DNA from: Bacteroidales bacterium
Lineage (GTDB): Bacteria > Bacteroidota > Bacteroidia > Bacteroidales > UBA932
DNA length: 58,458 nt
Reading direction: 5' to 3'
Assembly (NCBI GenBank): GCA_017454905.1
Contig: JAFTCB010000026.1
Coordinates: forward strand, 1-58,458
The notes beneath the pieces are model-generated. The model was not told the DNA's origin, searched no databases, and saw nothing but the letters and a program-made list of their open reading frames with translations. Positions 3,390 through 27,872 of this stretch are shown one piece after another; position 1 is the stretch's first letter; every line of letters starts with the position of its first letter. Made by a program: the position numbers and the translations under genes.

Positions 3390-3432
3390 TATAAAAATAG
3401 CCATTTCCCGGACAGGGCTTTGCCGGGAAATG
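3390..3432 (-). terminator. Intrinsic terminator at the end of the 12-gene cluster
   Basis: A 10-bp perfect stem (3402-3411 with 3423-3432) and an 11-nt loop are followed on the minus strand by GGCTATTTTTAT. It lies just after the last gene of the large cluster, so it likely ends that transcript and separates it from the GH43-GH27 operon. The A-rich stretch around 3392-3399, one base off a minus-strand TATTTTTG box, could also belong to the GH43 promoter. Confidence 0.65.
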
Positions 3433-3475
3433 ACTAAAAGCTATCAAAAATCGGTCAGCCGCGTGCGGCGGGAAG

Positions 3476-4522
3476 TTATTTCCGGAGTGCTCCGCCGACC
3501 GCTCCCTGATAGGCGCCGACCAGCCGGGAGAGCATCTCCTCGCTGTAGGCGATCGCGCAGCCGCCGACGACGGACCCGTTCACCAGCGCGGTTTCCGCGT
3601 GGCAGGAGAAGGATTTGCCGTGGTCGTCCCTGCCGGTGAAATTGACATAGGAAATGGGATAGAGGCCGTCATCATCAAAACGGACACGATAATCCTTGCT
3701 GATGCCGAAGTTGTTCGCCACGGCATCGGCCAGTTTGCGCGTCGAGTCGGTCAGCAGTTGGGTTACCCGCTCGGCCGGGACGTTGTCCGCCCCTTTCAGA
3801 ATGTCCGGGAGCAGGATCAGGTACAATTGATCGTCCCCGCCGTCCACCGGAACGATCAGGAAGGTCTCTTCGGACTGCTGGGCGATCCGGAAGTCTGCAT
3901 CCATGTCGAAGGAGATGCCTGCGGCTGTCACCGGTCGTGTAGAAACCATGCCTTGCGCGATATCGCCGGATTCTGTTGCGCCGACGACGGCTTCCTGATA
4001 GACGGCGACCAGGTCGTCAAGCGGTCCCTTGCCCATGGCGATGGCACAGCCGCTGACGATGACGCCGTTCACCAGGGCCGCTTCTGCGTGGAGCATGAAG
4101 GGATTGCCCTCCTTGTCCGTGCCGCTGAAGCTGGTGTAGGCATTGGGGCAGTGTGCGTCGTCCTCGAAATGGATACGGTAGGCCTGGTCCAGCTTGAAAC
4201 CGGACTTTTTCTCCGGGTTGGCGATTACGCCGGCCTGCTGGTCCACGGCGTTTTTCAACATGTCGGCGAGCTCCTCGGAGGTAAGCCCGTCGATGCCCGC
4301 GAGGGCATCCGGGTAGATCCGCAGGACCAGCCGGTCGTTGTCGGGATTGACCTTCGGGCTGATCAGGATGGCCTCGGAGTCGGAGAGTTGCTGCCGGCCG
4401 GCGACTTGGAATTCATCGGCGAGCAGGAAGGTGACACCGCCTGCGGTGACGGACTGCTGGGCCCGGGCGGACGTGGCCAGGGCGGACAGGCAGCACAGAA
4501 ATACAAAGATTTTTTTCATCAT
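3476..4522 (-). CDS. Secreted protein with two tandem copies of an unrecognised ~150-aa domain
   Basis: I do not recognise this family. The 348-aa protein has a signal peptide (about 1-22) and two related halves, roughly residues 25-182 and 197-346. Each half has the pattern aGGhtFxhxxxF, a central hydrophobic strand pair, an ELAD/RVTQ helix, Y-x-h-F-x-D-D, an AYTSFSG- or SYVNFTG-like strand, LVNGxVVxGCAIA with a conserved Cys, and a closing Y-x-x-AV helix. Single copies of the same domain form the C-termini of the proteins at 8493-9671 and 9674-10831. The layout recalls PsbP/MOG1/DcrB-like alpha/beta folds, but that is only a guess. It is the last gene of the 12-gene cluster, 25 bp after a giant gene, and is predicted periplasmic or extracellular. 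No catalytic motif is evident. Confidence 0.6.
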   Translation of the reverse strand: MMKKIFVFLCCLSALATSARAQQSVTAGGVTFLLADEFQVAGRQQLSDSEAILISPKVNPDNDRLVLRIYPDALAGIDGLTSEELADMLKNAVDQQAGVIANPEKKSGFKLDQAYRIHFEDDAHCPNAYTSFSGTDKEGNPFMLHAEAALVNGVIVSGCAIAMGKGPLDDLVAVYQEAVVGATESGDIAQGMVSTRPVTAAGISFDMDADFRIAQQSEETFLIVPVDGGDDQLYLILLPDILKGADNVPAERVTQLLTDSTRKLADAVANNFGISKDYRVRFDDDGLYPISYVNFTGRDDHGKSFSCHAETALVNGSVVGGCAIAYSEEMLSRLVGAYQGAVGGALRK

Positions 4523-4547
4523 ATTATTCGCGTGTTATCATGAATCA

Positions 4548-7500
4548 TCAACACCAGTCTGAATCGTTTTCCAGTTTCTCATGGAAGCCGCCTTTGATGG
4601 ACTGGACAACAGCCCACTCCATGTCTTCTTCCCTGATTCTGATATAATTGGAAGGGTCGGGGCCTTTCGCGATGATCTCGTCCACCTCCGTGATGAGCGA
4701 GAAGGCTTTCTCCGCTTCCTTGCCCAGGGATTTGCCGTCCATCTGGTAGGAGGCATAGAGTTCGACCAAGGCCTGGCTGTCGCCCTCGCTGGTGCGGGAA
4801 AGCATGTGTTCGATCCGTCCACGGAGTTCGTAGGCGGCACGGAGTTTCTCCGGATTGAGATTGTCGAGTTTACCCCAGTCCGCGACCACGTTCAGTTTGC
4901 TTTCCAGGGTGCGGTCCATGCCCTTGGGCAGCTGCCGGCAGGCATCGCGCAGTTTCATCAGTGCTTGTGCTTCAAGCACTTCCTTAATCCGGGGATCCGT
5001 GGCAAGAGCGGCCTCCTTCATCTTTCGTTCAAATTGTTCGAGCGGCTCCTGGATTTTGTAGGTCTGGACCTTCTGGACCAGCTCCGGATTATCAAAAGCT
5101 TGTGTGGCGGTCCCCTTGGGATCGATCACTTTCTTGACATCACTGGGCCCGAAGGACTCGGGGCCGGTGGAGGAGACGGCGGTCTGTTCGGCCTGGTAGC
5201 CCAGGTAGTCCGCATCCCAGGGGGAGATCATCCGGTCTCCGGTGGCCTGGTAGCAGTATTCGTCGTTCCAGTAGCGGCCGGCCACTTCCTCAGGGAGGTC
5301 TTTGCCGTTCACGCGGATGGTGTAGTCGTGGTCCATGCCGATCTTCTTGCAGTTGACGGCATTGACCTTGGTCGCGTTGCCCGTGGCCTCGAAGAAGGTG
5401 ATCTGCGACTCGTGCACGCCGAAATCTTTGGCCAGCTGCTTCTTGAGCGCCCGCTTCACGTTCTCGTGCAGGATCGTGTTCTCCGTGGTGAAGCGGAAAC
5501 GGTACTTGTCGATGACCTTGGCGGAATTGAGGTAGGTCTTGGCGAAATGGTCGCACTGGATGGAGAGCACCAGTTTCTTCAGCTCTTCGGGTGAGATGTT
5601 CGGGTCGTTGCAGGCCTTGATGAACTGCTTGACCTTGGCCTCGCCCAGCTTCTGGGCCCGTTCGGCGATGGCTTTGAGCTCCTTCAGATCGGGAGAAGAC
5701 TCCATCTTGAACTTGCCGATTTCCAGCTTTTTCTGGCCAAGCAGGCGTCCGTCGATCTTCATCTTGGCCAGTTTGCGGCCGTTGCGGGCCAGCTTGCTGA
5801 CGAAGTTGATGGACGAATAGTTCTTGCAGAGACTCCGCTCGACGGACCGGATGTCCCGGTGGATCTCGTGGGCCATCTCCTTGAGCGCCTGGCCGAACTG
5901 GGTGGAAGAAATCTCGCTCATAGCTCCGCCGATCACTTTCTGCCCGGCCCAGTTCTGGCAGGCCTCGAAGTAGGCGAATTTGGCGCCGACGGCGAAATTG
6001 TCGAAGAAGTTGCTGTCGTAGTTCTCGCCGGCTTTCTGACATTCGAGCAGGAAGCGTTTCGGCGTGTAGTAAAGGATCTCCGAGTAGCCCAGCGTGACGA
6101 TGCCGAGCAGGATCCGGCCCATGACGGTCTTCGGTTCGTGCTCCTCAAAGGTCTCCATGCACATGTTGAAAGCATCCCCGAAATACACTTCTTCCCAGGA
6201 ATACGTGTGCTCGGCGACATACAGGGGACCGATCTCGCCCCGCATCGTGCGCAGGTAGAGTGACTTGGCCGTGTAGAAGTCCGGCATATAGAATCCGAAG
6301 CGCTCGTCGAATGAGTCGAGCATCAGGCGGCATTTGCAGATCAGGGCGTTGAACTGGGGTGCTTGGGGCAGGTTCGTCAGTTTGGTAATCATCATCACCA
6401 GCCTGTCCTGGACCTGCGCATCGAATTTCATCATGTTGGTCAGGGACTGCATGTCCGGGGCGTATCGCATCGGCATCGAGATGACCATCAGCGTCTGCTT
6501 GTCCTCGAAGGTGCGTCCTTCGTAGGAAGCGGTGGCCGTGATGGCGACCTTGCAGCGGTTGGGCGGCACCATGATGGCCGAAGGGATGATCTCATAAACA
6601 TAGGTCATCGTGTGTCCCGACACGTCGGAACGCTGGCTGATCGGTCGGGAGTCGATGCCGAACTGTTCCACCTTGAAGCCCAGCGCCCGGACCGGCTCGG
6701 TGATCTCGGCGCCTTTCTTGCCGAACCATTCCAGCGACTCGCTTACATCCTCGAAAACGATGCTGACATCCCGGGGCGAGGGCGAGCCGATCATGTTTTT
6801 CTCTTTGTTCCAGGCAAAGAGCGTCAGCTCCAGCCGGGTGTGGGCGGGGACGATGGACACGTCGCTCTCGTCCCAGTCCGCCATCCCCTTGAGGCTCTGG
6901 TTCTCCCGCAGGGTCTGGTCCTGGCTCTTGAGGATCTCCTCCGTGCAGTTGATGGACTCGGTGCCCGCCACGACGGCGTAAGCCTTGACGTGGTCGACGA
7001 CCATGCGCAAGCCTTCGTAAAAGCGGTGGACGGGCAGGCGTTCGGTAATCTCCCGCTCACCGTCCTTGAGGATCTGTTTGGCCGTGATGGCGAGATAGCA
7101 GTTGTCCATGTTGCCGGCCATCTGCTCGGGGATCTCCGTCAGGCGGTCCTTCAAGTCCACGCTCCAGGACCCTTCCTTGTCAGGCCGGACGTGGGAGATG
7201 ATCTCAAAGGATTTATTCTTGTCATCCTCCAGCCTGACATCGAAGACGGGTTCGTTGCCGAGGCCGACTACGTAGAAATAGACGGTCTCAGCGCTCTGGT
7301 GCCCGGCTACGAAGGTGATGTTCTGCTGGGTGAAAACGATTCTCTTGCTGTCTTCGATATAGAATTCCACGTGGTTGCGCAGGATGCCGGTGGGAGTCTC
7401 GAAGTAGAAGATGACCGTTCCCTTGGGCGGGATAGCCGACTGCTTCGGCTCCGGCACGCAGATGGATCCGGACATATATTTGCCGTCAAAACCCGTGGAG

Positions 7501-8471: not shown

Positions 8472-8492
8472 TGACAGCGGGATTGGATCATA

Positions 8493-9671
8493 CTAGCGGT
8501 CAGCGGCGGCGGAAACGACTTTTCCATAAATACCCCGCATTCCGGAATGTATATTCTTGTCGGATGCGATGGCGCAGGAGGAAACGACACTCCCGTTCAC
8601 CAGTTTGCTCTCCACGCGGCAGGAGATGGGGTTCCCCTTGGCGTCCTTGCCGCTGAATTCGGTGTAAGCGGTCGGATACCGGCCGTCCATGTAGTAGCTG
8701 ATGTCAGTTTTTTTGGTGACTTCATAACTGTCGGCCGCCGTGTCGAAGAGTTTTTTCGCGGCAGTCTTCATCAGATCCGACAGTTTCTCGGCAGGGAGAT
8801 CTTCCACTTTGACGCCGGAGAGCACATCCGTGTTGAGGATTAGAAACATCCTGTCGTTGGCGCTGCTTTTTCCTTTCGGGACGATCACCAGGGTCTCTCC
8901 TGGATTCAGCGGAGACCTTTCCGAAATGGTGAAATCACTGTCCAGGTCGAAGGTAAGGCCTCCTGCGGACACGCGCTTGACGGCTTCCTTGTCGGTCTCA
9001 TAACGATAATAATGATCGATGACATAGCTGCTGCGCCATTCTTTCTCTTCATCGTAGTTATCCAGGGCAAATCCGCCGAAATCAGCGATGATGCGCAGGA
9101 CGAGCATCCATTTCCCGTCTGTCTCATCGATCTTGTAGAAGCTGAAGTCTTCGCCTGACTGGATCAGGGGGATCGCCGGGCCCGATGCCGACCCCCATGC
9201 GGGCAGATCGGGCATATATCTCCATTCCGGATTCTGATAACCCGATCTCCCGTCCACCCGCGTGAGCGTCAGCCGGATGTCGAGGCCGAAGCCCGGAGTC
9301 GGACGGAGGCGCCGGTAGTCCTTGTCTTCGTACAAGGACGGCGAGGTCTCCAGGTTGTAGCTGATCTGGAGTTTTCCTTCCTCGGTGGTTTTGATGACGG
9401 GCGGAGGAGCTCCCCACGACAGCTTGATGGTCACGACATCGGAGACGCGATGCTCCTTGAGTTCTCCGCCCTCGCGGTTGTAATATGAATAGCTTTTGCT
9501 GTTCGTGTACAGAACCGAGTTGGGGGTGTAGCTGAAGTCCGGACTACCGGACTTGTTGATGACTTTCACATCATACATGACCCATTTGCCTCCCGGCTTG
9601 ATCTGGGCGAAGGAGGGGAGGACCGTGGGGAGGCACAGGGCCAGCGCGGTGAGGATCAGGAACTTTCTCAT
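8493..9671 (-). CDS. Secreted fusion of a giant-type ectodomain and the cluster's ~150-aa secreted domain
   Basis: A 392-aa protein with signal peptide 1-22. Residues about 28-225 resemble the ectodomain of the class B giants: a KWVMYDV start (YWVLDRV and YWVLDHV in the giants), then DGKWMLVLRI (DGSWTLIIEI in the giants), and a final aromatic strand HYYRYE (RYYYRF, RYWYRF). Instead of a membrane span it continues into one copy of the secreted domain (about 233-390: SAGGLTFDLDSDF, AYTEFSGKDAKGNP, LVNGSVVSSCAIA). This links the giants and the secreted proteins as parts of one system. The gene starts 2 bp after the upstream gene's stop and precedes the class A giant by 21 bp, so the genes are co-transcribed. 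No enzymatic motif is seen; a soluble partner or competitor of the giants is inference. Confidence 0.6.
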   Translation of the reverse strand: MRKFLILTALALCLPTVLPSFAQIKPGGKWVMYDVKVINKSGSPDFSYTPNSVLYTNSKSYSYYNREGGELKEHRVSDVVTIKLSWGAPPPVIKTTEEGKLQISYNLETSPSLYEDKDYRRLRPTPGFGLDIRLTLTRVDGRSGYQNPEWRYMPDLPAWGSASGPAIPLIQSGEDFSFYKIDETDGKWMLVLRIIADFGGFALDNYDEEKEWRSSYVIDHYYRYETDKEAVKRVSAGGLTFDLDSDFTISERSPLNPGETLVIVPKGKSSANDRMFLILNTDVLSGVKVEDLPAEKLSDLMKTAAKKLFDTAADSYEVTKKTDISYYMDGRYPTAYTEFSGKDAKGNPISCRVESKLVNGSVVSSCAIASDKNIHSGMRGIYGKVVSAAADR

Positions 9672-9673
9672 GG

Positions 9674-10831
9674 CTATTTCCCGGCGGCGGCGTTGACGGC
9701 ATCGACATAGATGTCGGTGAGCGCTTCGAATTCTTTCTTGTCGGCCGCGATGACGCAGCCGGCGGTGATGGTGTTCTTGTTGATCAGCGTGGCTTCTGTG
9801 TAAATATCGACGTTTCTTCCCTGCGCATCCTTTCCCTTGCCGTAGGAATAGGCGTGGGGATGGTAGTAGCCGTCCGAATTGTCGTCGTAATAAATCTTCG
9901 GCTCTCCGTTCATCCGTACGCCCGGCATCACGGTGTTCAGGAACTCCACCCGGGTGGCGAGCAGGTCGCCCACCTGGTCGGAACTGAGGTTGCGGACGTT
10001 GGACAGGCCCTCTTTCTGGACTTCCAGGTAGAGCTGGTCGTTCGAATTCGGGCGGTTGATCTGCATGCTCTGTCCGCCGCCCAGGTTCTGCCGGGCTTTG
10101 GCCTTGTAGCCGGGGGCCACATTGAACGAAACGCCGCTCACGGTGGCGCGGGTGCTGCCACTGCTGCTGCCGCCGCTACCGCTACCGCCTCCGGCAACCG
10201 TGCCGAGGGAAATGCCGTTCTCATAATTGATGTGGACGGGTTCGTTGGTGCCGGTGGGCATGCGCAAGGTGTTGCCGCCGCCGGAGGGGCCGGAACTGAT
10301 GGCGCCCTTATAACCGTTGGATAGGTCCAGGGTGACGGTAAACGTGATCGGGACGGCTTCGTTCTGGCCGCTGATCTTGTACGGAATCCGGATATTCAGC
10401 GTAACGCTCTTGCCGTCGCTGATACCGGAGCCTGGCGCATTGTAGACGGAGGAGCGCTGGACTTTCGTAAGGCGGGATGTCTTGTCGACCATTTTGCCGG
10501 TGGACGGATCTTTCTCCCGGGTCCCGACCGTGAAATCAGACCAGTCGGTGAGTTGGAAAGACCATACGGCGCCGCTCGCAGAAAGATTCTGGCTCTTGAC
10601 GGAAGGCATCTTGCCTTTCCAGGTGAAACCGCCCACGCGTCCGCCGTTGCCTTTGGATGTGAAGGAGAAATCTCCCGTGGTGTTGTCCACGGTAAAGGAA
10701 ACGGGTGCCGAGGATTCACTGCCCATAGCGCAGGAGACGCGACCGGTAAAGGTTTCCCTGGCGGGCCGCTGGGCCAGCAGGGCCGTGCCGCAGAGCAGCA
10801 GGCCGGCAAGGAGTAATGCAAGTCTTTTCAT
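9674..10831 (-). CDS. Secreted two-domain protein with C-terminal cluster domain
   Basis: A 385-aa protein from the ATG at 10831; an upstream in-frame ATG at 10858 would put nine extra polar residues before the signal peptide and is not preferred. After a signal peptide ending near LLAQ, a beta-rich domain of about 170 residues follows (FTGRVSCAMG, FSFTSKGNGG, VTLNIRIPYK) that I do not recognise. A Gly/Ser linker (GGGSGSGGSSSGS) leads into one copy of the secreted domain shared with 3476-4522 and 8493-9671 (GVSFNVAPGYK, DDNSDGYYHPHAYSYG, AGCVIAADK). It lies between a class B giant (58 bp upstream) and the ectodomain fusion gene (2 bp downstream). Probably exported and co-expressed with the giants; role unknown. 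Confidence 0.6.
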   Translation of the reverse strand: MKRLALLLAGLLLCGTALLAQRPARETFTGRVSCAMGSESSAPVSFTVDNTTGDFSFTSKGNGGRVGGFTWKGKMPSVKSQNLSASGAVWSFQLTDWSDFTVGTREKDPSTGKMVDKTSRLTKVQRSSVYNAPGSGISDGKSVTLNIRIPYKISGQNEAVPITFTVTLDLSNGYKGAISSGPSGGGNTLRMPTGTNEPVHINYENGISLGTVAGGGSGSGGSSSGSTRATVSGVSFNVAPGYKAKARQNLGGGQSMQINRPNSNDQLYLEVQKEGLSNVRNLSSDQVGDLLATRVEFLNTVMPGVRMNGEPKIYYDDNSDGYYHPHAYSYGKGKDAQGRNVDIYTEATLINKNTITAGCVIAADKKEFEALTDIYVDAVNAAAGK

Positions 10832-10889
10832 TTCAGTGTTATTTAGTTTATGAATCAATATACAAATAGAATACCGAAAAATACTTTAT

Positions 10890-13800
10890 CTACAGTGAGT
10901 TGTTGACGTCGATGACGGCCTGGGCGCATTCTTCGACGACGTTTTCAATGGTGGTGCCGAACTTGTTCTCCAGGATGGACCGGGCTTGCTCCAGCGTGAC
11001 AGAGGGGACGCCCTTGGGCGGCGGGTTGCCGAGGCCCTCGAGGATGCGGATCTTGGCCATTAGTTTGGTATAATCCAACTTGGCGCCCTTGGCGACCGCT
11101 GCTTCGATGCGGGGGACAAGGATGCGGTTGAACTGCTTGACGTTCTGGCGGACGCCTTCTTCGATCAGGGCCTCTCCGTATCCGAGGACGTGCAGGGCTT
11201 CTTCTTCGTAGCCGTACTTGAGCAGCTGCTCGGCGGTTTCGTGTGCTTTCTGGCCCCGTCCCAGCCATTCCTTGCACTTGTAGAGATAGGTTTCGGCGAT
11301 GCGGTTGGCATCGGTCAGCTTCTCTGTCTGCCGGCTCGGATCGATGATGCGGGCGAGGTCGTCGCCGTAGGATTCCAGGCCGAATTTACCGTTCACCACG
11401 GCCTGGTCGGCCTTGATGATGGTCTTGAGACGCTCGAGCTTGTCGCCCGGGATGAACTTGTACTGCATCTCGTTGAAGGCTTCGCTGTAGGCGTCCTCCA
11501 TCAGTTGCTCGTTCAGATCATACCACTTGCCGTCGGATCCCTTGAACTGGTAGGTGACGTCGCGGTCGGCACCGATCTTGCGGCCGAGCTGCAGGTCGTT
11601 GCCGGCATTGCCCGTCGCTCCCTTGAATACACGGATCTCGGGGGGCTGGGTGCGGTTGCCGCCCGCAATGATCTTCTGCTGCAGGCGCTTGATCACCACC
11701 GGATCCAGTTCGTCGTAGATCTGCTGCATCTGGGCGTTGTAGTTGGCCCGGAGCATGTCGGAAGGGTTGGTACGCAGCAGGTTCTGCGCGGTCTTGTTGC
11801 CCTGCAGGGCCAGGGTGGCGCGGCGCATCTCTTCCTTGGTCGCCGTGGGGTTGTTCATCACGCGGCGGAAGTCGTCCAGGATCTTCTGCGCATCCTTCTT
11901 GGCGGCTTCGGCCCCCTTCTTCCGCAGTTCCGACGTGATGAGCGACCCGGTCTGCTTGCCGGTGCTGCTGCCGGTGCTTCTGATGGCGTCGTCGGCCATC
12001 TCCTGGGCGTTCTTGAGCGTTTCCTTGACCTTCTTGGCGGTCGAGCCGACCTTGTCGGCCTGGGAAGCGCTGCTGTAGCCCGGCCGGTTGCCGAAGGCCT
12101 GGTTGACCTTGGCATTGTGCGCGGCCTTTTCCGCGCTCGCGCCGATCTTCTTGGTCTGGGCGGCCAGTTTCTGCACCTTGGCGGCCCGGTCGGCGCGCCA
12201 CTGCTTGATCTTGCTGAAGCCCTTGCCGAGCCCGGCGAAGAGCAGCTCCATGGCGATGATCTTGATGCTGATCTGCGCAAATCCTCCCCAGACGCTGTCG
12301 CCTCCCTTGTCCACGTATTCCTTCATCTCCGCCAGGGCGCTGATCGGGGTCAGGACGACCTCGGAGACACCGCCGGTCACGATGGCCAGTCCGATGCGGC
12401 AGATGATGACCGGGATGGACCTGTCCATCGTGGCGATGGTGGCGACGACGGCGTCGAAGGTCTCGTCGTCGGGCGAGACGGTCTGCTTGACCGCGAAATA
12501 AGTGCCGATCTCCCCGCTGGTGAACTGCTTGAAGATGTGCATGATGTTCTCGTAGTCCCGGTCGTCGAAGCCGAAGGCCTTGTCGTGTCCTTCGATCATC
12601 ACAGCCACCTTGTAGAACAGCGGACGGAGTTCGGCGAAGCGGCGGTCCATCACAATCTTGCGGCGCAGGTCGATGAGATTCTCCTTGCGTTTGAGGTCCT
12701 CGTTATCGTACTTGGCCAGGGCGCGCATCAGGTCTCCGCCTGGCGGGATGTCCACGATCCGGTAGGGCTGGGAGTTGACCGGGACGCGCAGCTCTTCCTT
12801 GAACTCCTGTCCGTGCCAGGTCATCGTGACCGTGACCTTGGCGAAACTGCGGTTGGGCGGCACCAGGAAGCCCCCGGTGGCCACGATGACCCCGTAGAAG
12901 GCACCGTCGGGCATCCAGTCGCGGAATTCGTAGCGGAATTTCAGCAGCTCGCAGGGCGAGGGGACGTTCTCGCCGGTGAAATCCCGGAAGAACAGGTTCT
13001 CGTACATGGCCAGGTCTCCCGCGGACGGGACATATCCGGCGGCATCGCCCTTGGGCTTGTCGGTGAAGAGCGCGCTGCCGCGGAAGTCGTCTTCGAACTT
13101 GAAGACGGGGCCCTTGTCCGGCTTGACGGGACCGATTTTCCCCGGATGATTCGGATCGCTGTCGTCCACGACGACCAGCTGCATGTCCACGCGGCTCTCG
13201 GCGGGCTTGAGCCGCCGCTTGTTGCCGATGGGCGGGAGGAAGTCATGGTCGGGCGTACTCTCCAGCTCTACGAGGAAGCCCTTGAGGGCACGCAGCTCCA
13301 CGCGCAGGCCAAGGTGGATGCGGTTGATCTTGAAGGTCTCGGTGACTTCCGGACGTTCGCCCCGGGGCTGTACCCGGATGGTGCAGTCGTAACTCTCGAT
13401 GGTGCCGGCCCGTTCCTTGGCTTCGCCGAATTCGGTCAGGTGGATCCGGAAGAGGTCCGGATTCTGGTCGCTCTGCTCCAGTTCGGCCTTGAAATGCTCA
13501 TATCCCGCTTCTTCGAGCGTGACCTCCAGCCCTTCGGGCGACTCGGCGGCGCCGTAGAGGTAGAACTCCATGAACAGGGTCTTGCCCTGTCCGGCGGCGA
13601 AGGTGATGGAAGGCTCCACGAGAATGGTGGCCGCATCGTCCACCTTGAACTCGATGCGGTTGAGGAAGCGTCCGGCGGGGGCGTTCAGGGCGAAAGTGAC
13701 CTGGGCCATATCCGGGCAGCTGCCGTCCGCTTCACGCTCGGCCGTGACCATACCCATCATATAGATGCCTTCCATCTTCTGGCTGTGCACCTTGGCGTGG

Positions 13801-14891
13801 ATGGTCCCGGAGATGGAAATCAGCTTCGCGAGGTCCGGGCGGTCGATGGGATCCCCGTCGGGGGTGATCTCCTCGATGCGCGCGCCGACCTTGACCGGCG
13901 GATCGTCCAGCACCAACGTGTCATCGAAATCTTTCCAGATGACCATCCGGTAGGTGCTGACACGTTCTTCTTCCTCTTCCTCCTCCTCTTCATCTTCGTC
14001 GTCATCCGGCTTGTCGGATTCTTCTTCCTCTTCCTCCTCCTTTTTCTTCTTTTTATTGCGGTTCTTGATGACACGCCAGCCCACATAGGCTCCGGGCGGA
14101 ATCAGGAAGATCTCCCAGGGGATATCGCTCCCGTTATCCTCGCCTGGGGTCTTGCTGGCGGGCTTGACATTCTCCTCCTCCACGAAAGCCTGGCCGTGGA
14201 AACGGTAGTAATAGCGGGTGGAAGCGACGAAGAAATTTTTGTAATGCGTGTCGGACATGGGGTCGGACGAGCCGAATCCGTCCTGGCTGGATACATCGGT
14301 TTGGATCTCGATGATCAGGGTCCAGGAGCCGTCCGGGAGGAAATATTTCATCGACTCCTGAAGCGCATCGGTGTGAATCGTGTCAAATGAGCCGGAGGCG
14401 TTGCCGTAGCAAGGCGTGACGGTCGCTTTTTCGAATACCCAATACGGCTCGTAGATTACCCCGCTGCGTTCTACGCCATGCTGGGTATATATGGACGCGC
14501 TGATCGTCCAGAGCGAGGGAACATTCATCAAATAGATGTCCATCTGGCTTTCGAAGGTGGGGGTGGAAGTCAACGTCCATCCGATGCGCACCTTGTCCTC
14601 TTTCAAATAGGGAATCTTGTTCGGAACGTTCCAGCTCGCGTGGATGTTCACCTCCGCCGTACGCTTGGCGTAGTGCGAGTATGGTTCCTGGGCTTCGACG
14701 TGTCCGTCGTGCACGTGGTTGTAGGTGAGGGAGTTCTCGGATTGCGTGAAATAGGGAATCTTCTCGCTGCGGGAAGTCTCGACCCGGTCCAGGACCCAGT
14801 ACAATTCATCATCCTGCTCCTGGGCCAGCAGGGTGCTGCCGGACCACAGGACCAACAAGGTGAGTAAAACAAGATGAAGCGGTCGTCTCAT
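10890..14891 (-). CDS. Giant membrane-anchored protein, class B (copy 1), C-terminal nucleotidyltransferase-like motif
   Basis: A 1333-aa protein from the ATG at 14891; the frame is open to a TTG at 14909, but the ATG puts MRRPLHLVLL, a proper signal peptide, at the N-terminus. The order is ectodomain (about 25-240, ending RYYYRFHG), a weak membrane span about 258-275, KKKKK and then a long Glu/Asp tract, and STYRMVIWKDFDDTL with VGARIEEITPDG. VPPNRSFAKV follows, then the hydrophobic motif RIGLAIVTGGVSEVVLTP, a helical region with NNPTATKEEMRRATLALQG, and the module ATGNA (1092-1096), KIGADRDVTYQF (Asp1109, Asp1111) and RIIDP (1181-1185). A helical C-terminus closes it. It is a paralogue of 18812-22876 and a more distant homologue of the two class A giants. 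It lies 18 bp after the class A gene at 14910-18779. Function unknown. Confidence 0.6.
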   Translation of the reverse strand: MRRPLHLVLLTLLVLWSGSTLLAQEQDDELYWVLDRVETSRSEKIPYFTQSENSLTYNHVHDGHVEAQEPYSHYAKRTAEVNIHASWNVPNKIPYLKEDKVRIGWTLTSTPTFESQMDIYLMNVPSLWTISASIYTQHGVERSGVIYEPYWVFEKATVTPCYGNASGSFDTIHTDALQESMKYFLPDGSWTLIIEIQTDVSSQDGFGSSDPMSDTHYKNFFVASTRYYYRFHGQAFVEEENVKPASKTPGEDNGSDIPWEIFLIPPGAYVGWRVIKNRNKKKKKEEEEEEESDKPDDDEDEEEEEEEEERVSTYRMVIWKDFDDTLVLDDPPVKVGARIEEITPDGDPIDRPDLAKLISISGTIHAKVHSQKMEGIYMMGMVTAEREADGSCPDMAQVTFALNAPAGRFLNRIEFKVDDAATILVEPSITFAAGQGKTLFMEFYLYGAAESPEGLEVTLEEAGYEHFKAELEQSDQNPDLFRIHLTEFGEAKERAGTIESYDCTIRVQPRGERPEVTETFKINRIHLGLRVELRALKGFLVELESTPDHDFLPPIGNKRRLKPAESRVDMQLVVVDDSDPNHPGKIGPVKPDKGPVFKFEDDFRGSALFTDKPKGDAAGYVPSAGDLAMYENLFFRDFTGENVPSPCELLKFRYEFRDWMPDGAFYGVIVATGGFLVPPNRSFAKVTVTMTWHGQEFKEELRVPVNSQPYRIVDIPPGGDLMRALAKYDNEDLKRKENLIDLRRKIVMDRRFAELRPLFYKVAVMIEGHDKAFGFDDRDYENIMHIFKQFTSGEIGTYFAVKQTVSPDDETFDAVVATIATMDRSIPVIICRIGLAIVTGGVSEVVLTPISALAEMKEYVDKGGDSVWGGFAQISIKIIAMELLFAGLGKGFSKIKQWRADRAAKVQKLAAQTKKIGASAEKAAHNAKVNQAFGNRPGYSSASQADKVGSTAKKVKETLKNAQEMADDAIRSTGSSTGKQTGSLITSELRKKGAEAAKKDAQKILDDFRRVMNNPTATKEEMRRATLALQGNKTAQNLLRTNPSDMLRANYNAQMQQIYDELDPVVIKRLQQKIIAGGNRTQPPEIRVFKGATGNAGNDLQLGRKIGADRDVTYQFKGSDGKWYDLNEQLMEDAYSEAFNEMQYKFIPGDKLERLKTIIKADQAVVNGKFGLESYGDDLARIIDPSRQTEKLTDANRIAETYLYKCKEWLGRGQKAHETAEQLLKYGYEEEALHVLGYGEALIEEGVRQNVKQFNRILVPRIEAAVAKGAKLDYTKLMAKIRILEGLGNPPPKGVPSVTLEQARSILENKFGTTIENVVEECAQAVIDVNNSL
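13970..14055 (-). repeat. GAA/GAG-rich microsatellite coding for the acidic tract of the class B giant
   Basis: On the minus strand the DNA is almost purely GAA, GAG, GAT and AAG codons, giving KKKKK, then runs of Glu and Asp just after the membrane span. Such low-complexity DNA is prone to length change by slippage; in-frame changes would alter the length of the juxtamembrane linker. Confidence 0.5.
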
Positions 14892-14909
14892 AGGCGGATT
14901 GTGTGTCAA

Positions 14910-17900
14910 TTACCAAATGTCTTTTTCGCCGGTTATGGTATCTTCTCCCACGTTCTTCAGTGTCAGGGCCGTCTTCCAGTCTACGTTGTCCGGCAGGCTG
15001 GGTCCGTTGCCGATCAGCGAGTCCACCTCGGTGATGAGCGAGAAGGCTTGGCGGCTCTCATCGGCGAGGGACTTGCCCTCGGCCTTGTAGGAGGCGTAGA
15101 ATTCAATCAGGGCCTGGCTGTCGCCCTCGCCGGTGCTCGCGAGCATCTCTTCGACGCGCCCGCGCAGTTCCTTGGCCGCCCTGAGCTTGGAAGGGTCGAT
15201 CTTGTCGCCGAGCCCCATCTGATCCAGCAGCTTGATTTTTTCCTCCATCGTGCGGTCCATGCCCTTGGGAATCTGCCGGCCGGCTTCACGCAGGTTGTGC
15301 AGCGCTTCCTTCCGGTAGGTTTTCGCCCAGGCGGGATCCGTCTCTGCCGCAGCCTTCTTCATGAATTCCTCGAATTTCCTGAGTGGCTCCTCGACCTTGT
15401 AGGTCTGCACGTCCTGGACCAGCTGGGCGTCGTCGAACTTCACACCGGCAGATGCCTTGGGATCGATGACCTTGTTGACGTCCGTCCGGAAGGATTCGGG
15501 CCCGTCGAACGAGACGGCGGTCTGTTCGGCCTGTTCGCCCAGTTTCCCCGCGTCCCAGGGCGAGAAGTTCTTGCTTCCGGTGGCCTGGTAGCAGTATTCG
15601 TCGTTCCAGTAGCGGCCGGCCACCTCCTCGGGCAGGTCCTTGCCGTTGATCCGGATGGTATAGTCGTGGTCCATGCCCACTTTCTTGCAATTGCAGGCGT
15701 TGACCTTGGTCGCATTGCCCGTTGCCTCGAAGAAGGTGATCTGGGACTCGTGCACGTTGAAATCCTTGGCCAGCTTTTTCTTGAGCGCATCCTTGACACG
15801 GGAGTTGAGAATCGTGTTCTCCGTGGTGAAGCGGAAGCGGTATTTGTCGATGACCTTGGAGGAGTTGAGGTAGTTCTTGGCCCAGCGGTCGCACTGGATG
15901 GAGAGCACCAGGGCCTTGAGCTCCTCTTCGGAGATATTGGGATCGTTGCAGGCCCGGATGAACTGCTTGACTTTCTGCTCGCCCAGGGCCTGGGCTTCCT
16001 TGGCCAGGTCGCGAAGTTCCTGCATGGCCGGGGATTTCTCCAGCAGTTCCTTGCCGGCCTGCATTTTCTTCTTGCCGAGCTTGCGGAAGTCGATCTTCCA
16101 CTGGAGAACCTTGTTCGCGTTGTGGGCGAGCCGGCTGACGTAGGCGATGGAGGAGTAGTTGTTGCACAGGGTCTGCTCGATGCCTTTCAGGTCATTCTTG
16201 ACGAGGTCGGCCGTCTCGGCGAGCGCCTGGCCGAACTGGGTGGTGGAGAGCTTGTTGAGTCCCCACTCCATGCCCTTCTTCATGAGTGCCGCCTCGAGGA
16301 TTTCGAGCGAGGCGAACTTGGCGCCCACGTAGAAGTTGTCGAAGAAGGTGTTGCTTTCGTTTTCGGAGGCTTTCTTACACTCCAGAAGGAATCGCTTCGG
16401 GGTGTAGTAGAGCACTTCCGAGTAGCCGAGCGTGACGATGCCGAGCAGCAGGCGGCCCATCAGGGTCTTGGGCTCCCGCTCGGCCATCGCGGCCATGCAC
16501 ATGTCGAATCCGTCGCCGAAATACACTTCTTCCCAGACATAGGCACTCTCGGCGACGTACAGCGGGCCGACCTCGCCGGTCATCAGCTTCAGGAACAGTT
16601 TCTTGGCGTTATAGAACTCCGGCATGTAGAAGCCGAAGCGTTCGTCGAACGACTGGAGCATGATGTCGCACTTATAGATCAGGGCAGCCAGCTCGGGAGC
16701 CTGCGGTCTGGAGACGAGCACGTTGCGCATGTGCGTGAACTTCTCGCGGACCTGCTCGTCGAACTTCTGCATCTTGTGGAGTTCCGCCAAGTCGGAGGGG
16801 ACGCGCACCGGCATGGAGAGGACCATCGAGGTCTGCTCCGCCTCGAAGGTGCGGCCGCGGTACGTGGCCGTGGCCTTGATGGCAGCTTTGCATCGGTTGG
16901 GCGGCACCATGATGGCGGACGGGACGACTTCGTAGATGTAGGTGCGGGTGCAGATGCCTTCGATGACCGGACGGCAGTCCACAGCGAAATCCTGCAACTG
17001 GAAGCCCAGGCTGGCTACCGGATTATGAATAGGCTCGTCCTTGCGCTTGCCGAACCACTCCAGCGACTCGGGGATGTCCTCGAACGTGACTTCCATGCTG
17101 TCGGGAGCGGGGCTGCCGATCTTGTTGGACTTCTCGTCCCAGACGAAAAGCGTGAGCTCCAGGCGCGTGTGGGCAATGGCGAGCGGATGCTCGTAGTCCT
17201 GGGGCTGCTGCTCCGTCATGGTGATGCTCTCCGTGCCCTTGACGACCGGGTATGCCTTGAGGTGTCCGACTTGCAAGCGCAAGCCCTCGTAGAAGCGGTG
17301 GACGCTCAGGCGCTCCTTGACCTCGCGCATGCCGTCCCTGACGGGCTCGCTGGCCTTGACGACCAGGTAGCAGCTGTCCACGTCGCCGGCCATCTTTTCC
17401 TTGACCGCATCGTCCGGGAGGCAGTCGGCGAGATCGACGCTGTAAGAGCCCTCTTTGTCCGGACGGACCTTGGACAGGGAGAAGGTCTGCTTCTTGTCGT
17501 TCTCGAGCGAGGCTTCGACCTTCGCGTTTTCCGAGAGGCCCTGGACATAAAAATAAACGGTCTCCGAACTCCGCTTGCCGGCCACGTAAGTGACGTTGTC
17601 CTGGCAGAAGAGGATCCTGAGCTTGTCTTCAATCTTGAAAATCACTTCGTTGCGCATCATTCCGGAAGGGCCTTCGAAGGAGAAGATGACGGAGCCCTTG
17701 CTGGGGATGTGGGTGGTCTCCGGATCCGGTACCCGGATGCTTCCGCAGAAATATTTGCCGTCAAAGCCGGTAGAGAGCAACTGGATGTTGTTGCCCTCGA
17801 TGATGTGGATGGTGCGGGTCAGGTCGGCCCGCGGGACCTTCTCCCCACCGGGCTTGATCTCTTCGATCCGGGCACCCACGACCCGGGGTTCGTCGCCCGT

Positions 17901-18779
17901 GCGGAGCATGTCGCCGAATTCCTTGTAGAGGATCATCTGGAAAGAGCTGGGGCCTTCCGGCTCGTCCCCGTCGTCTCCGTCTTCCTCTTCTTTCTTCTTC
18001 TTTTTCCGGTTCCCGGCTATCCGGCTGACGGCGACGGCGACGCCGGCGGCGGCCAGGGGCCCCCAGAAGATGACGGGCGGAATCTTCTTCGTGCCGAATT
18101 CACCGGGCTTGTCCGTCGCATCGGTCTCGTAGTTGTATACCGGATCGTTACCGACAAATTTGTAGACATAGGTCTGGGTAGCGGTGGACTCCCAAACGGC
18201 AGAGTGCCAGCCCGGGCTGTTGGCATCAGGTCCGCCGAGACGGTAGAGCCGCACCTTTACGGTGATATAGAGGCGGGAGGTCCGATCCGGGGAGAAGATA
18301 TCCATGTGCATGTCCTGGTCCGGGGGACGGCGCAGGGTGGCGGTGACGTGCGTACCCTGGGAGGTCCAAGTGTGGACCTGGGCGCTGTGCTGTCCAGTCT
18401 CTTCAAAAAAATAGGATTCGGCCTGCCCGGTGTACTCGGCCGTGACCGTGACAGCGGCGCCCGGGGCAAAGGCTTCCAGGTTGGGGTTCGAGTCCCCGAT
18501 CCTGTGCGTTCCGTCCCCGGAGAGGACCTGGATATGGAAGGTCAGGTCCTCCTCCTCGCCGAAACGGATCTGCTTGGGTGGGGAGTCCCAGGTGAAGCAG
18601 GTCCCGTTGTCCTTGAGCGTGGCACTGTTGGGCTTGACTTTCCACTGGAGTTTCTTGCTTTTCTCGGTCTGGCTGGAATTGACGGAGGAGTCCTGCAGGA
18701 CCCAGTAGCCGTCTGCGAGGCATACCTGTCCGCTCAGGACGAACAGGCTCAGAAGGGAAAGTAAGATGGGTTTGCGCAT
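14910..18779 (-). CDS. Giant membrane-anchored protein, class A (copy 2), C-terminal nucleotidyltransferase-like motif
   Basis: A 1289-aa paralogue of the protein at 4548-8471. Signal peptide 1-22; ectodomain about 23-228 with GYWVLQD, NGTCFTW and TYVYKFVG; KPGEFG then KKIPPVIFW leading into a span about 233-256; KKKKK at 259-263. The middle begins SSFQMILYKEFGD and includes VGARIEE and VPPNRCKAAI. GIVTLGYSEVLYYTP precedes the helical region with CNDPNISEEELKAL. The terminal module has FEATGNATK, GMDHDYTIRI with Asp1037 and Asp1039, RYWNDEYCYQATG, and VIDP at 1104-1107. The C-terminal region is almost the same as its paralogue's, while the ectodomain is strongly diverged, which suggests a fixed intracellular job with changing external input. 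It sits between the two class B genes, 32 bp after one and 18 bp before the other. Function unknown. Confidence 0.6.
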   Translation of the reverse strand: MRKPILLSLLSLFVLSGQVCLADGYWVLQDSSVNSSQTEKSKKLQWKVKPNSATLKDNGTCFTWDSPPKQIRFGEEEDLTFHIQVLSGDGTHRIGDSNPNLEAFAPGAAVTVTAEYTGQAESYFFEETGQHSAQVHTWTSQGTHVTATLRRPPDQDMHMDIFSPDRTSRLYITVKVRLYRLGGPDANSPGWHSAVWESTATQTYVYKFVGNDPVYNYETDATDKPGEFGTKKIPPVIFWGPLAAAGVAVAVSRIAGNRKKKKKEEEDGDDGDEPEGPSSFQMILYKEFGDMLRTGDEPRVVGARIEEIKPGGEKVPRADLTRTIHIIEGNNIQLLSTGFDGKYFCGSIRVPDPETTHIPSKGSVIFSFEGPSGMMRNEVIFKIEDKLRILFCQDNVTYVAGKRSSETVYFYVQGLSENAKVEASLENDKKQTFSLSKVRPDKEGSYSVDLADCLPDDAVKEKMAGDVDSCYLVVKASEPVRDGMREVKERLSVHRFYEGLRLQVGHLKAYPVVKGTESITMTEQQPQDYEHPLAIAHTRLELTLFVWDEKSNKIGSPAPDSMEVTFEDIPESLEWFGKRKDEPIHNPVASLGFQLQDFAVDCRPVIEGICTRTYIYEVVPSAIMVPPNRCKAAIKATATYRGRTFEAEQTSMVLSMPVRVPSDLAELHKMQKFDEQVREKFTHMRNVLVSRPQAPELAALIYKCDIMLQSFDERFGFYMPEFYNAKKLFLKLMTGEVGPLYVAESAYVWEEVYFGDGFDMCMAAMAEREPKTLMGRLLLGIVTLGYSEVLYYTPKRFLLECKKASENESNTFFDNFYVGAKFASLEILEAALMKKGMEWGLNKLSTTQFGQALAETADLVKNDLKGIEQTLCNNYSSIAYVSRLAHNANKVLQWKIDFRKLGKKKMQAGKELLEKSPAMQELRDLAKEAQALGEQKVKQFIRACNDPNISEEELKALVLSIQCDRWAKNYLNSSKVIDKYRFRFTTENTILNSRVKDALKKKLAKDFNVHESQITFFEATGNATKVNACNCKKVGMDHDYTIRINGKDLPEEVAGRYWNDEYCYQATGSKNFSPWDAGKLGEQAEQTAVSFDGPESFRTDVNKVIDPKASAGVKFDDAQLVQDVQTYKVEEPLRKFEEFMKKAAAETDPAWAKTYRKEALHNLREAGRQIPKGMDRTMEEKIKLLDQMGLGDKIDPSKLRAAKELRGRVEEMLASTGEGDSQALIEFYASYKAEGKSLADESRQAFSLITEVDSLIGNGPSLPDNVDWKTALTLKNVGEDTITGEKDIW

Positions 18780-18811
18780 GGATGCCCGGGATTAAGTGTC
18801 AAAAAACGTGG

Positions 18812-22876: not shown

Positions 22877-22882
22877 GATGGT

Positions 22883-23647: not shown

Positions 23648-23679
23648 AGTTTGGAGGTGTTTGATGATATACGTGAAAG

Positions 23680-23946
23680 CTACCAGCCCATCTTCATCGC
23701 CACCATGGCGACGCCGACCAGGATCGCGACCACCCAGCCCACGATGGACCGCTTTTTCCCCTTCACGGGGGCGTCCTGCTGCGGATACTGAGGCTGCTGC
23801 GGATACTGGGGCTGTTGCTGATAAGGTTGCTGCTGATAGGGCTGCTGCTGATAGGGCTGCTGAGGCGCGCCGAACCGGGCGCCGCAGGCAGGGCAGAACA
23901 TGGCGTCGTCAGAGAGCTGGGCTCCACAGTTGGGACAGTACTTCAT
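23680..23946 (-). CDS. Small tail-anchored zinc-ribbon protein
   Basis: An 88-aa protein: CPNCGAQLSDDAMFCPACG zinc ribbon (4-22), a short QQPYQQQPYQQ repeat, a basic KGKKR patch and one C-terminal span (about 66-86). It is the compact version of the 254-aa protein downstream and very like the 92-aa protein at 24620-24898. Gaps to both neighbours are tiny (3 and 32 bp). A cytoplasm-facing membrane adaptor is the most that can be inferred. Confidence 0.65.
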   Translation of the reverse strand: MKYCPNCGAQLSDDAMFCPACGARFGAPQQPYQQQPYQQQPYQQQPQYPQQPQYPQQDAPVKGKKRSIVGWVVAILVGVAMVAMKMGW

Positions 23947-23949
23947 GTC

Positions 23950-24618
23950 TTATTTGGCTTTGGGACAGTGTTGACGGATGAAATCCAGAACGAAGTCGAA
24001 GTCCTCTTTCGGGACATAGACCTGGTTGCGGTCGAGCAGTTTGTTGACCTTGATGAGTTCCATCAGACGGCGGGGCTTGATCCGCCGGACGTTGGCGAAA
24101 TCGGAGGTGGAGGTGGTGCGGGCGGTGGAGAGCATGCCGGCGCCTACCGTGGAGGGCCGCTTGGCGAGGATGCCCACGAGGACGGTCAGCAGGCCGAGTT
24201 TGCGCGCCCGCTGGACCTGGGCGGGTTCCTGATCGTGGATGACGCACTGCTCGTCCAGGGTGAAGTGCACGATGTACTTGCCGCCGTACATCCAGGCGAT
24301 GATCAGGTAGGAGATCAGGATGAGGACGGCGAAGACGGCCATCACGACCAGCCAGACCTTGGGATTGCTGCCGCTCCACAGGCGGTCGTTCCATTCCTTC
24401 TGCAATTCGCCCTTGGAGGCGAGGCTGATCACGTTGATCAGGAAAGGGATGCTCAGCAGGACGCCGAAAATCTTGTACACCACCAGGATGATGGCGGGAT
24501 TCTTCAGCATGTTGAACTCGTAGGTCCAGCGGTATTTCCCGTCCTGGCAGAGACGGACGCGCGGACCTTCGTAGCCGGTGCTCTCTAACTCCCCGGACGG
24601 GGTGATGACCGGGTCCAT
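23950..24618 (-). CDS. Two-span membrane protein, PH-like C-terminal region, no zinc ribbon
   Basis: A 222-aa protein. After VRLCQDGKYRWTYEFNM (near 21-37) come two hydrophobic segments (about 44-66 and 88-110), then a soluble C-terminal half with GGKYIVHFTLDE, GAGMLSTAR, FANVRRIKP, NQVYVPKEDFDFVLDFI and HCPKAK. The protein at 24902-25681 has the same layout and matching motifs but with a zinc ribbon at its N-terminus, so this one is a paralogue without the ribbon. The two-span plus small beta-rich domain plan resembles bacterial PH-like membrane proteins; that is inference. It is co-transcribed with separate ribbon proteins on both sides. Confidence 0.6.
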   Translation of the reverse strand: MDPVITPSGELESTGYEGPRVRLCQDGKYRWTYEFNMLKNPAIILVVYKIFGVLLSIPFLINVISLASKGELQKEWNDRLWSGSNPKVWLVVMAVFAVLILISYLIIAWMYGGKYIVHFTLDEQCVIHDQEPAQVQRARKLGLLTVLVGILAKRPSTVGAGMLSTARTTSTSDFANVRRIKPRRLMELIKVNKLLDRNQVYVPKEDFDFVLDFIRQHCPKAK

Positions 24619-24619
24619 G

Positions 24620-24898
24620 CTATGACAGGCCTAAAGGGTTGAACTGGATCAGGAGATAGGTCCCGATGCCGATCAGGGCCCACATCCACCACTTGATCTG
24701 GCCTTTTTTCTGCTTCTGCTCCTGGCGGGCCTGGCGGACCCGGTCCATGTAGGTCATCTTCTGGGGCTGCTGGTATTGCGGCTGTTGGTACTGGGGTTGC
24801 TGGTAATTCTGCTGGGGAGCGCCGAAACGGGTGCCGCAGACGGAACAGAAATTGGCGTTGTCGGGGAGCTGGGCTCCGCAGTTGGGACAGTACTTCAT
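24620..24898 (-). CDS. Small tail-anchored zinc-ribbon protein
   Basis: A 92-aa protein with zinc ribbon CPNCGAQLPDNANFCSVCG (4-22), repeats of QYQQPQ, a charged RQARQEQKQKKG linker and one membrane span near the C-terminus (about 68-88). Its start lies 3 bp after the stop of the upstream ribbon protein, and its stop is 1 bp before the ribbon-less membrane protein at 23950-24618, with which it may act as a split version of the fused ribbon-plus-membrane protein upstream. Confidence 0.65.
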   Translation of the reverse strand: MKYCPNCGAQLPDNANFCSVCGTRFGAPQQNYQQPQYQQPQYQQPQKMTYMDRVRQARQEQKQKKGQIKWWMWALIGIGTYLLIQFNPLGLS

Positions 24899-24901
24899 GG
24901 C

Positions 24902-25681
24902 TTAGTTTGCTTTGGGACAGTTGGAACGGATGAAATTCAATACGAAGTCGAAGCCTGCGTCATCGATATAGATCTGGTTGGCTTTCAGCGTGCCGTTGAG
25001 TTTGATGATGTGCCGGGCCGGGTCGGGCTTGATGCTGCGGACGTCCTTGAAGCGTGAGGTCAGCTTGTTGCGGCTGGCGGCCAGGATGCCGGCGCCGGTG
25101 GCTACCGGGTTGCCGGCGATGGCGCCCGCCAGCATGGCGATCCAGCCGGCCACCTGCGCTTTCTTGAACTGGGCCGGCAGCTGGATGTGGGCGATCTCGT
25201 TCTCGTTCATCTCGAAGAGGACGCAGTATTTGCCGCCGTTGATGGCCGCTACGATCAGGTAAGCGAGCAGGCTCAGTACACAGATACCGGCGAAAACGGC
25301 CAGTATCACCAGGGTGAACTTACCGAAATCTTCGAACCCGTTCATGATGCAGATCAAGAGCCAGACCACGCCGACGGAGATACCCAGCACCTTGATGAGC
25401 GTGCCGAGGATGGCCATGCTTTTGAACATGTTGAGTTCGTACACCCAGCGGTACATGCCGTCTTCGCAGAGGCGGACGGTGCCGTCGGCCTGCGCGGCAT
25501 AGTCCGGAGCCGGACCGGGCTGGGCGGCCGGGGCCGGTTGGGTGAAATTGCCGGCAGGGTTCGGATACGTTTCCTGTGCGGGGGCAGGTGCCGGTTGGAC
25601 AGGATCGGCCGGGGTCCCGCATTCGGGGCAGAACCGGGCTTCGTCGGAGAGCTGTGCTCCACAATTCTTGCAAAATTTCAT
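24902..25681 (-). CDS. Zinc-ribbon membrane protein with PH-like C-terminal region; first gene of the cluster
   Basis: A 259-aa protein from the ATG at 25681, which puts CKNCGAQLSDEARFCPECG (4-22) at the N-terminus like its neighbours. The open frame extends to 25747 through the panE terminator, so that start is rejected. A Pro/Ala linker leads to VRLCEDGMYRWVYELNM, two hydrophobic segments, and a C-terminal half with GGKYCVLFEMNE, GAGILAASR, FKDVRSIKP, NQIYIDDAGFDFVLNFI and NCPKAN. It is a paralogue of 23950-24618. As the first gene of the 12-gene run it lies next to the presumed promoter, but only a weak TATTTTAA box is seen in about 25699-25708 on the minus strand, overlapping the panE terminator tail. 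Confidence 0.65.
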   Translation of the reverse strand: MKFCKNCGAQLSDEARFCPECGTPADPVQPAPAPAQETYPNPAGNFTQPAPAAQPGPAPDYAAQADGTVRLCEDGMYRWVYELNMFKSMAILGTLIKVLGISVGVVWLLICIMNGFEDFGKFTLVILAVFAGICVLSLLAYLIVAAINGGKYCVLFEMNENEIAHIQLPAQFKKAQVAGWIAMLAGAIAGNPVATGAGILAASRNKLTSRFKDVRSIKPDPARHIIKLNGTLKANQIYIDDAGFDFVLNFIRSNCPKAN

Positions 25682-25699: not shown

Positions 25700-25737
25700 G
25701 TTAAAATACAAAGAAACCCGCCTCATGGAGGCGGGTT
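25700..25737 (-). terminator. Intrinsic terminator after panE
   Basis: A perfect 10-bp GC-rich stem (25715-25724 with 25728-25737, loop ATG) followed on the minus strand by a T-rich tail (complement of 25700-25714). It ends panE and marks the upstream border of the 12-gene cluster. Confidence 0.8.
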
Positions 25738-27731: not shown

Positions 27732-27872
27732 GCAAATCCGCCGGGCCGGCTCTGACGTCCGCGGCTCAAATGCTTTCAGAAATAAGTCAAACTCAACCCG
27801 GGACCCTGTCCGGACCGGCGGGAATACAGACTTTTTTGTATCTTGCACATCAGGAAAACTATTACCGTTAAT

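Follow-up and report, generated by a model that had tools for sequence, protein, structure and literature searches.

In the 58,458-nt contig JAFTCB010000026.1 of a Bacteroidales bacterium (the whole stretch is called the window here, and it is a single contig of a 2.4-Mb genome that is 82% complete), we considered a minus-strand operon of twelve intact open reading frames (ORFs) at positions 3476-25681, running from P0012, the first gene at the 5′ end, to P0001, the last. The operon encodes four homologous giants of about 1300 aa, three secreted proteins and five small membrane proteins, four of the latter with a zinc ribbon. We tentatively read it as an accessory receptor-like transmembrane complex of giants and zinc-ribbon adaptors, working by a mechanism that we infer. 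The giants and the zinc-ribbon proteins probably form one complex across the cell membrane, and the secreted and two-span (2-TM) parts are best read as additions of the lineage. Homology, linkage, fusion, a linker motif and conserved residues were observed; docking, sensing or signalling, catalysis and the task of the complex are proposed.

Much of this content had been listed in a first-pass annotation, which described twelve minus-strand genes with gaps under 60 bp, terminator-like hairpins on both sides, four giants of about 1300 aa, three secreted proteins with a common domain (duplicated in P0001) and five small membrane proteins, and which recognised no characterised system. Gene order and spacing were as described (largest gap 58 bp), and each hairpin folded better than 200/200 shuffles. 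The giants measured 1289-1354 aa and belong to one homologous family, the common domain was located as a unit of about 160 aa, and the small membrane proteins are P0008-P0012, four with a ribbon above the Pfam cut-off. No library searched names the system, and none gave a convincing profile match to a known, unrelated family for the giants.

Giants and zinc-ribbon membrane proteins

P0002, P0005, P0006 and P0007 align over their full length, the other three being 25-56% identical to P0006. Their common plan opens with a signal peptide and an ectodomain; next come a hydrophobic segment rich in glycine, which in many cases begins with IP, then several lysines in a row and about 1000 further residues. 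In the 15 residues flanking the hydrophobic segment the mean number of lysines and arginines (K/R) was 1.5 before and 6.8 after, with the higher value after in 49/51 giant rows, so that the part of about 1000 residues is predicted to be cytosolic; the C-terminal bulk of the giants likely lies there. The rows without the rise are the second row of locus L068 and the L075 fusion described below. The span is misplaced in the second L068 row and in L074, both kept in the counts, and some rows or loci share one genome, so that the counts are not of independent events. Cysteine content differs weakly (10.8 per 1000 after the span vs 8.6 before). Spans and signal peptides of the operon proteins were called by hydropathy. 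Four segments stay below the cut-off used: in P0002 and P0005 the internal span, in P0007 the one at the N-terminus and in P0011 the one at the C-terminus.

The ribbons of P0008, P0009, P0011 and P0012 are members of Zn_Ribbon_1 (PF13240), with 38.6-43.1 bits against a curated cut-off of 25. By a test that combined a regular expression with a hydropathy cut-off, a zinc-ribbon membrane gene was found at most 4 kb from the giants, on the same strand, in 24/35 loci, and 0 were found in 177,573 bp of outer flank. Seven of the 11 misses are cut short, with sequence that extends no further than about 1 kb on one side or on both, and in L065 a ribbon-plus-motif ORF is present with no span detected.

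In a Lachnospiraceae locus (L075) the N-terminus of the giant is fused to a polytopic zinc-ribbon protein (1598 aa), and free-standing relatives of this zinc-ribbon part adjoin giants in L071, L072, L073 and L074. A like fusion (1736 aa) is encoded in L100, from a genome of the same family, and the giant of L099 has a polytopic N-terminal part without a ribbon. The fusion of two proteins is a classical sign of joint function, and these fusions argue for a physical complex of giant and zinc-ribbon protein.

The linker motif, GE[FVIL][VIL]..[SA]W, occurs in zinc-ribbon proteins of twelve loci (two in L051). Among 4855 open segments it had 13 matches, every one in a zinc-ribbon protein and 12 of them directly beside a giant. 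A zinc-ribbon partner carries the form GE[FV]..xSW in Bacteroidales and Coriobacteriales loci, and near variants are present in L043, L045, L047, L053 and L061. Large zinc-ribbon membrane proteins also stand beside giants at L055:282-3161 (959 aa) and L075:6032-8194 (720 aa), the latter with a weak transglutaminase-like match (E 0.0038).

In an AlphaFold2 model (42 rows), immunoglobulin-like (Ig-like) domains cover positions 1 to about 400 of a P0005 fragment, mostly with good local confidence, and confidence is poor over fragment positions 486-640. The structural matches listed for the region are mainly Ig-like, cadherin, pilin and surface-layer (S-layer) domains, and it has the tandem Ig-like fold of bacterial Ig-like surface and S-layer proteins. 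Its cytosolic location is a prediction from positive-inside statistics, with a weak span in some rows. The first Ig-like domain is 31% identical between Bacteroidales and other phyla, against 17-24% for other giant parts, and the shortest giant relatives keep it; for these reasons we propose it as the docking site of the motif.

The C-terminal 349 residues of P0005 gave a structure model with a mean predicted local distance difference test (pLDDT) of 92.3 and a predicted template modelling score (pTM) of 0.87, which had no PDB or viral match at E ≤ 0.001. In this domain D125 and D127 are invariant in 37 rows (Bacteroidales, Clostridia and one Coriobacteriales metagenome-assembled genome, MAG), and A51, L55, R64, A108, E189, D194, K221, R264 and K268 are nearly invariant in the same rows. 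Such conservation would fit a metal- and phosphate-handling enzyme.

Distribution, accessory parts and possible exchange

Giants are encoded in 27/400 genomes of the genus, perhaps Cryptobacteroides (11/150 among the better genomes), in 1/296 across the phylum, that one being the window's own, and in 4/200 of the family surrounding one Lachnospiraceae genome, which is itself counted. Among GTDB contigs we found 34 loci, six of them (L068, L071-L075) in records labelled outside Bacteroidales or Bacteroidia/Bacteroidaceae. Giant loci occur in records of three phyla, and giants are found together with zinc-ribbon genes in MAGs labelled Bacteroidales, Clostridia and Coriobacteriales. As to the named records, they are MAGs or uncultured-isolate assemblies, and misbinning could have affected short contigs, L068 for example; several genomes back the Lachnospiraceae occurrence. 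A ruminant host or gut site is named in 12/34 locus record titles, and we take the RUG/RUI codes in other records to mean rumen.

The secreted domain has two copies in P0001 and one each in P0003 and P0004, and all three proteins start with an ordinary-looking signal-peptide segment, judged by hydropathy. It is present in 12/400 genus genomes, 12/12 of them within the giant-positive set of 27, and the N-terminal half of P0003 is related to the ectodomain of the giants (E 8e-11 with a giant profile built without P0003). On both counts the secreted proteins are part of the system in the window's lineage. The domain was not found in 15/27 giant-positive genomes, which are MAGs, so that incompleteness may explain some of these cases. 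As for the 2-TM family, P0010 and P0012 have relatives in 17/373 giant-negative genus genomes (including G067, G074, G081, G109 and G115), some of the matches being partial, and no giant lies beside these solitary relatives in the eight surroundings that were read.

The first-pass annotation had argued for one multi-part envelope machine, an idea that unlinked genes in related genomes would have undone. The genes are linked: the secreted domain is confined to giant-positive genomes and the zinc-ribbon gene accompanies the giants in most loci. This linkage, co-inheritance and the predicted outside-to-cytosol topology speak for a machine, and the giant/zinc-ribbon fusions for a physical complex of those two partners. 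One obligate machine of twelve parts is not supported, given the giant-positive genomes without the secreted domain and the giant-negative ones with the P0010/P0012 family. We therefore considered the giants and the zinc-ribbon proteins as the core and the rest as accessory.

The four window giants fall in separate, well-supported orthologue groups of the giant tree (in which long non-Bacteroidales branches are unsurely placed), so that the paralogues go back far and have been retained, a pattern that a heteromeric assembly would lead one to expect. The eleven system genes compared with an orthologue (all but P0009) had a ratio of nonsynonymous to synonymous divergence (dN/dS) of 0.16-0.52, which indicates that these genes are maintained. 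Because of this, and because the gene set recurs elsewhere, the operon is not a chance arrangement.

Synonymous divergence (dS) from the related genome G014 (window positions 3476-27695 against L042/L048) was uneven along the operon: 0.22-0.34 for P0010, P0002 and P0005, and 0.51-1.04 for six other system genes (1.04 for P0008); the flanking genes P0013 and P0014 gave 0.87 and 0.79. This mosaic suggests that blocks of the operon were exchanged between species. A mobile origin was also considered and rejected: no relatives were found for P0006 in phages, for P0005 in plasmids or for the giant alignment in viral contigs, and the flanking genes scanned are ordinary where matched and differ between loci.

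Coordinates of the operon and its surroundings

From P0012 to P0001 the gaps are 3, 1, 3, 32, 6, 32, 18, 58, 2, 21 and 25 bp, with ATG starts at 14891 for P0005 and 10831 for P0004. The start of P0012 is an internal ATG at 25681, codon 23 of the listed ORF. All features are collected in the table.

Table. Genes, domains and flanking hairpins of the operon (window positions)
Feature	Positions	Strand	Remarks
Terminator-like hairpin, 5′ of operon	25715..25737	-	arms 25715-25724/25728-25737, 100% complementary, T-rich tail
P0012	24902..25681	-	first gene; zinc ribbon, two membrane spans, C-terminal domain
P0011	24620..24898	-	92 aa; small zinc-ribbon protein, C-terminal hydrophobic segment under simple hydropathy cut-off
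P0010	23950..24618	-	P0012 paralogue; two membrane spans, without zinc ribbon
P0009	23680..23946	-	88 aa; small zinc-ribbon protein, single C-terminal span
P0008	22883..23647	-	zinc ribbon, P/Q-rich linker with motif GEFVVASW, C-terminal span
GEFVVASW codons of P0008	23321..23344	-	candidate docking strand
P0007	18812..22876	-	giant, class B
P0006	14910..18779	-	giant, class A
P0005	10890..14891	-	giant, class B; ATG start, TTG at 14909 possible
P0005 tandem Ig-like region	12759..13964	-	predicted cytosolic side; residues 1-402 of modelled fragment
P0005 C-terminal domain	10893..11939	-	mean pLDDT 92.3, no PDB match at E ≤ 0.001
Invariant D-x-D of P0005 C-terminal domain	11559..11567	-	
P0004	9674..10831	-	secreted protein; secreted domain at 9677-10153
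P0003	8493..9671	-	secreted; giant-ectodomain-like N-terminal part about 8988-9668, secreted domain 8496-8978
P0002	4548..8471	-	giant, class A
P0001	3476..4522	-	secreted protein; secreted-domain copies about 3971-4456 and 3479-3937
Terminator-like hairpin, 3′ of operon	3398..3436		arms 3398-3411/3423-3436, 93% complementary

The upstream neighbours are P0013, a ketopantoate reductase, and P0014, which has a sub-cut-off DUF4380 match; GH43 and alpha-galactosidase genes lie downstream. Glycoside hydrolases (alpha-galactosidase, GH43, GH9) flank the operon on both sides, at window positions 528-3370 and 27843-30476. On the plus strand, a 1296-aa ORF at 14874-18764 is antisense to P0006, and further long antisense ORFs are present. 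Homologues elsewhere match the minus-strand frames and not the long opposite-strand ORFs, which are probably an artefact of codon usage.

Proposed mechanism and its alternatives

The core of the complex, which the sequence supports, consists of paralogous giants, each with an ectodomain outside the inner membrane, one span and about 1000 residues predicted to be cytosolic, and of membrane proteins with a zinc ribbon that, like its linker, is predicted to face the cytosol. The mechanism that we propose starts from this core. The ectodomains would bind or sense an outside cue, helped by secreted proteins with a related ectodomain (P0003) or the secreted domain, and the signal would pass through the span to the Ig-like stack. 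In the window's lineage, the GE[FV]..xSW strand of a zinc-ribbon protein may dock by strand addition on this stack, with the first Ig-like domain as the likeliest site; clostridia lack the motif, and there the same job would fall to a different contact or to a complete fusion. The C-terminal domain, in which the D-x-D is invariant and E, D, K, R and K are conserved, might act as a metal-dependent enzyme or switch. Patchy spread and exchange suggest a task in conflict (with a phage, rival or predator) or a niche function rather than housekeeping.

The docking step is proposed by analogy with the Ig-like domains of eukaryotic filamin or VAP, which bind linear motifs of membrane proteins. The likeness lies in cytosolic Ig-like domains near the membrane and in a partner motif with alternating hydrophobic residues; unlike in filamin or VAP the docking here is a proposal, with the motif missing from clostridial loci. 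The giants have the Ig-like fold in common with the S-layer proteins SbsC and Sap, the fimbrial adhesin CfaE and cadherins, but in those the domains are extracellular, whereas in the giants they follow a predicted span and a lysine-rich stop.

Several results weigh against the proposed complex or limit its reach. The span is weak (hydropathy < 1.5) in 17/51 giant rows, and bacterial tandem Ig-like domains are usually extracellular; the stack model reached a pTM of only 0.42, with 197 residues at pLDDT < 50. By the simple test, L057, L060 and L064 have ample flank and no zinc-ribbon membrane gene, and L134:7954-10305 encodes a zinc-ribbon membrane protein of 779 aa in the neighbourhood of a lone P0010/P0012 relative, the two being on opposite strands and no giant being present. 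The linker motif is absent from the clostridial loci L071-L075 and L098-L101 and from the Bacteroidales zinc-ribbon genes of L044 and L050, so that docking by the motif is not general. No sequence or fold match assigns an activity to the C-terminal domain. Moreover, the L073 giant matches the giant profile only at positions 2-114 of 971, and one giant of G837 only over positions 2-289; the D-x-D domain is therefore not universal among giants. The L073 giant, from Ruminococcus (L073:4863-9398), keeps the span and the first Ig-like domain, its C-terminal half being unrecognised by the profile, and the effector end of giants may thus be exchangeable.

These weak spans, the S-layer and fimbrial adhesin proteins among the best structural matches of the Ig-like region, and the position of the operon among glycoside hydrolase genes would also suit a surface or envelope scaffold. 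In that case the giants would lie wholly outside the inner membrane, their hydrophobic segment would be a helix that is buried or re-entrant, the Ig-like domains would build an extracellular S-layer- or adhesin-like assembly, and the zinc-ribbon proteins would be inner-membrane biogenesis factors. We consider this unlikely, since the segment after the span is K/R-rich in 49/51 rows and giants are fused to zinc-ribbon membrane proteins; the slightly higher cysteine content after the span points weakly the same way. An export apparatus or envelope-stress sensor handling the operon's own secreted proteins appears very unlikely. It would account for a secreted domain found only in giant-positive genomes (12/12) and for the ectodomain relative in P0003, but the ordinary-looking signal peptides need no dedicated exporter, 15/27 giant-positive genomes are without the domain, and library scans recognised neither an ATPase nor a channel among the operon proteins.

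Anti-phage or other immunity, with attack sensed by the zinc ribbons or by the part that faces outward and with the C-terminal domain as effector, we regard as rather improbable. The patchy presence (27/400 in the genus, 4/200 in the family of the Lachnospiraceae genome), the records of three phyla and the signs of exchange (dS 0.22-0.34 for three system genes vs 0.79-0.87 for two flanking genes) favour it, and predicted conflict systems centred on GTPases also include zinc-ribbon and membrane components (PMC7159879). However, PADLOC gave 0 families at E ≤ 1 for the ten operon proteins scanned (all but P0009 and P0011), Pfam gave no integrase or defence family among 20 flanking genes (four of them without any match), and the paralogues are long-lived, which is not the fast swapping of effectors.

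Returning to the receptor-like complex, Pfam, NCBIfam, PHROGs and PADLOC scans of the system proteins yielded zinc ribbons and weak noise only, and the PDB, searched by sequence with profiles built for the C-terminal, the secreted and the 2-TM domain, gave nothing credible. Among the Pfam matches listed for fourteen proteins (the best 25 of 41 families for P0009 and the best 25 of 26 for P0011) there was no GTPase family at E ≤ 1. The nucleotidyltransferase (polymerase beta-like) superfamily has as its hallmark hG[GS]-x(9-13)-Dx[DE] on a helix-strand-helix-strand core. It is not established that the system belongs to the nucleotidyltransferases, the GTPase-centred conflict systems or any known defence system. 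The conflict systems resemble the operon in being multi-gene and in joining zinc ribbons to membrane components, but the operon has no recognised GTPase and has giants with an ectodomain and an Ig-like stack (PMC7159879). Single-TM zinc-ribbon proteins are also coupled to Skillet-2 Lipocone proteins; these share with the operon a single-TM protein with a cytosolic zinc ribbon that is gene neighbour and presumed partner, the partner being a Lipocone-domain protein there and a giant receptor-like protein here (PMC12419801). The literature searched, seen in part, held no description of such a system. Of its elements, the Ig-like fold and the zinc ribbons are old; what appears new is the giant family, the C-terminal domain and the way in which the parts are combined.

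A broader claim is more doubtful: that the operon represents a new class of bacterial transmembrane signalling complex of distant rumen and gut phyla, with a cytosolic Ig-like stack, zinc-ribbon adaptors (attached by the motif in Bacteroidales and Coriobacteriales, by other contacts or fusion in clostridia) and a C-terminal D-x-D enzyme of unmatched fold, to which an event outside the cell would be coupled. The receptor-like reading can be tested directly, thanks to the motif, the fusions that occur in nature and the D-x-D residues. If it is true, gut and rumen bacteria would possess an undescribed type of membrane machine, which would combine a C-terminal domain without significant structural relatives in our searches with docking of a linear motif on cytosolic Ig-like domains, a logic known to us mainly from eukaryotes.

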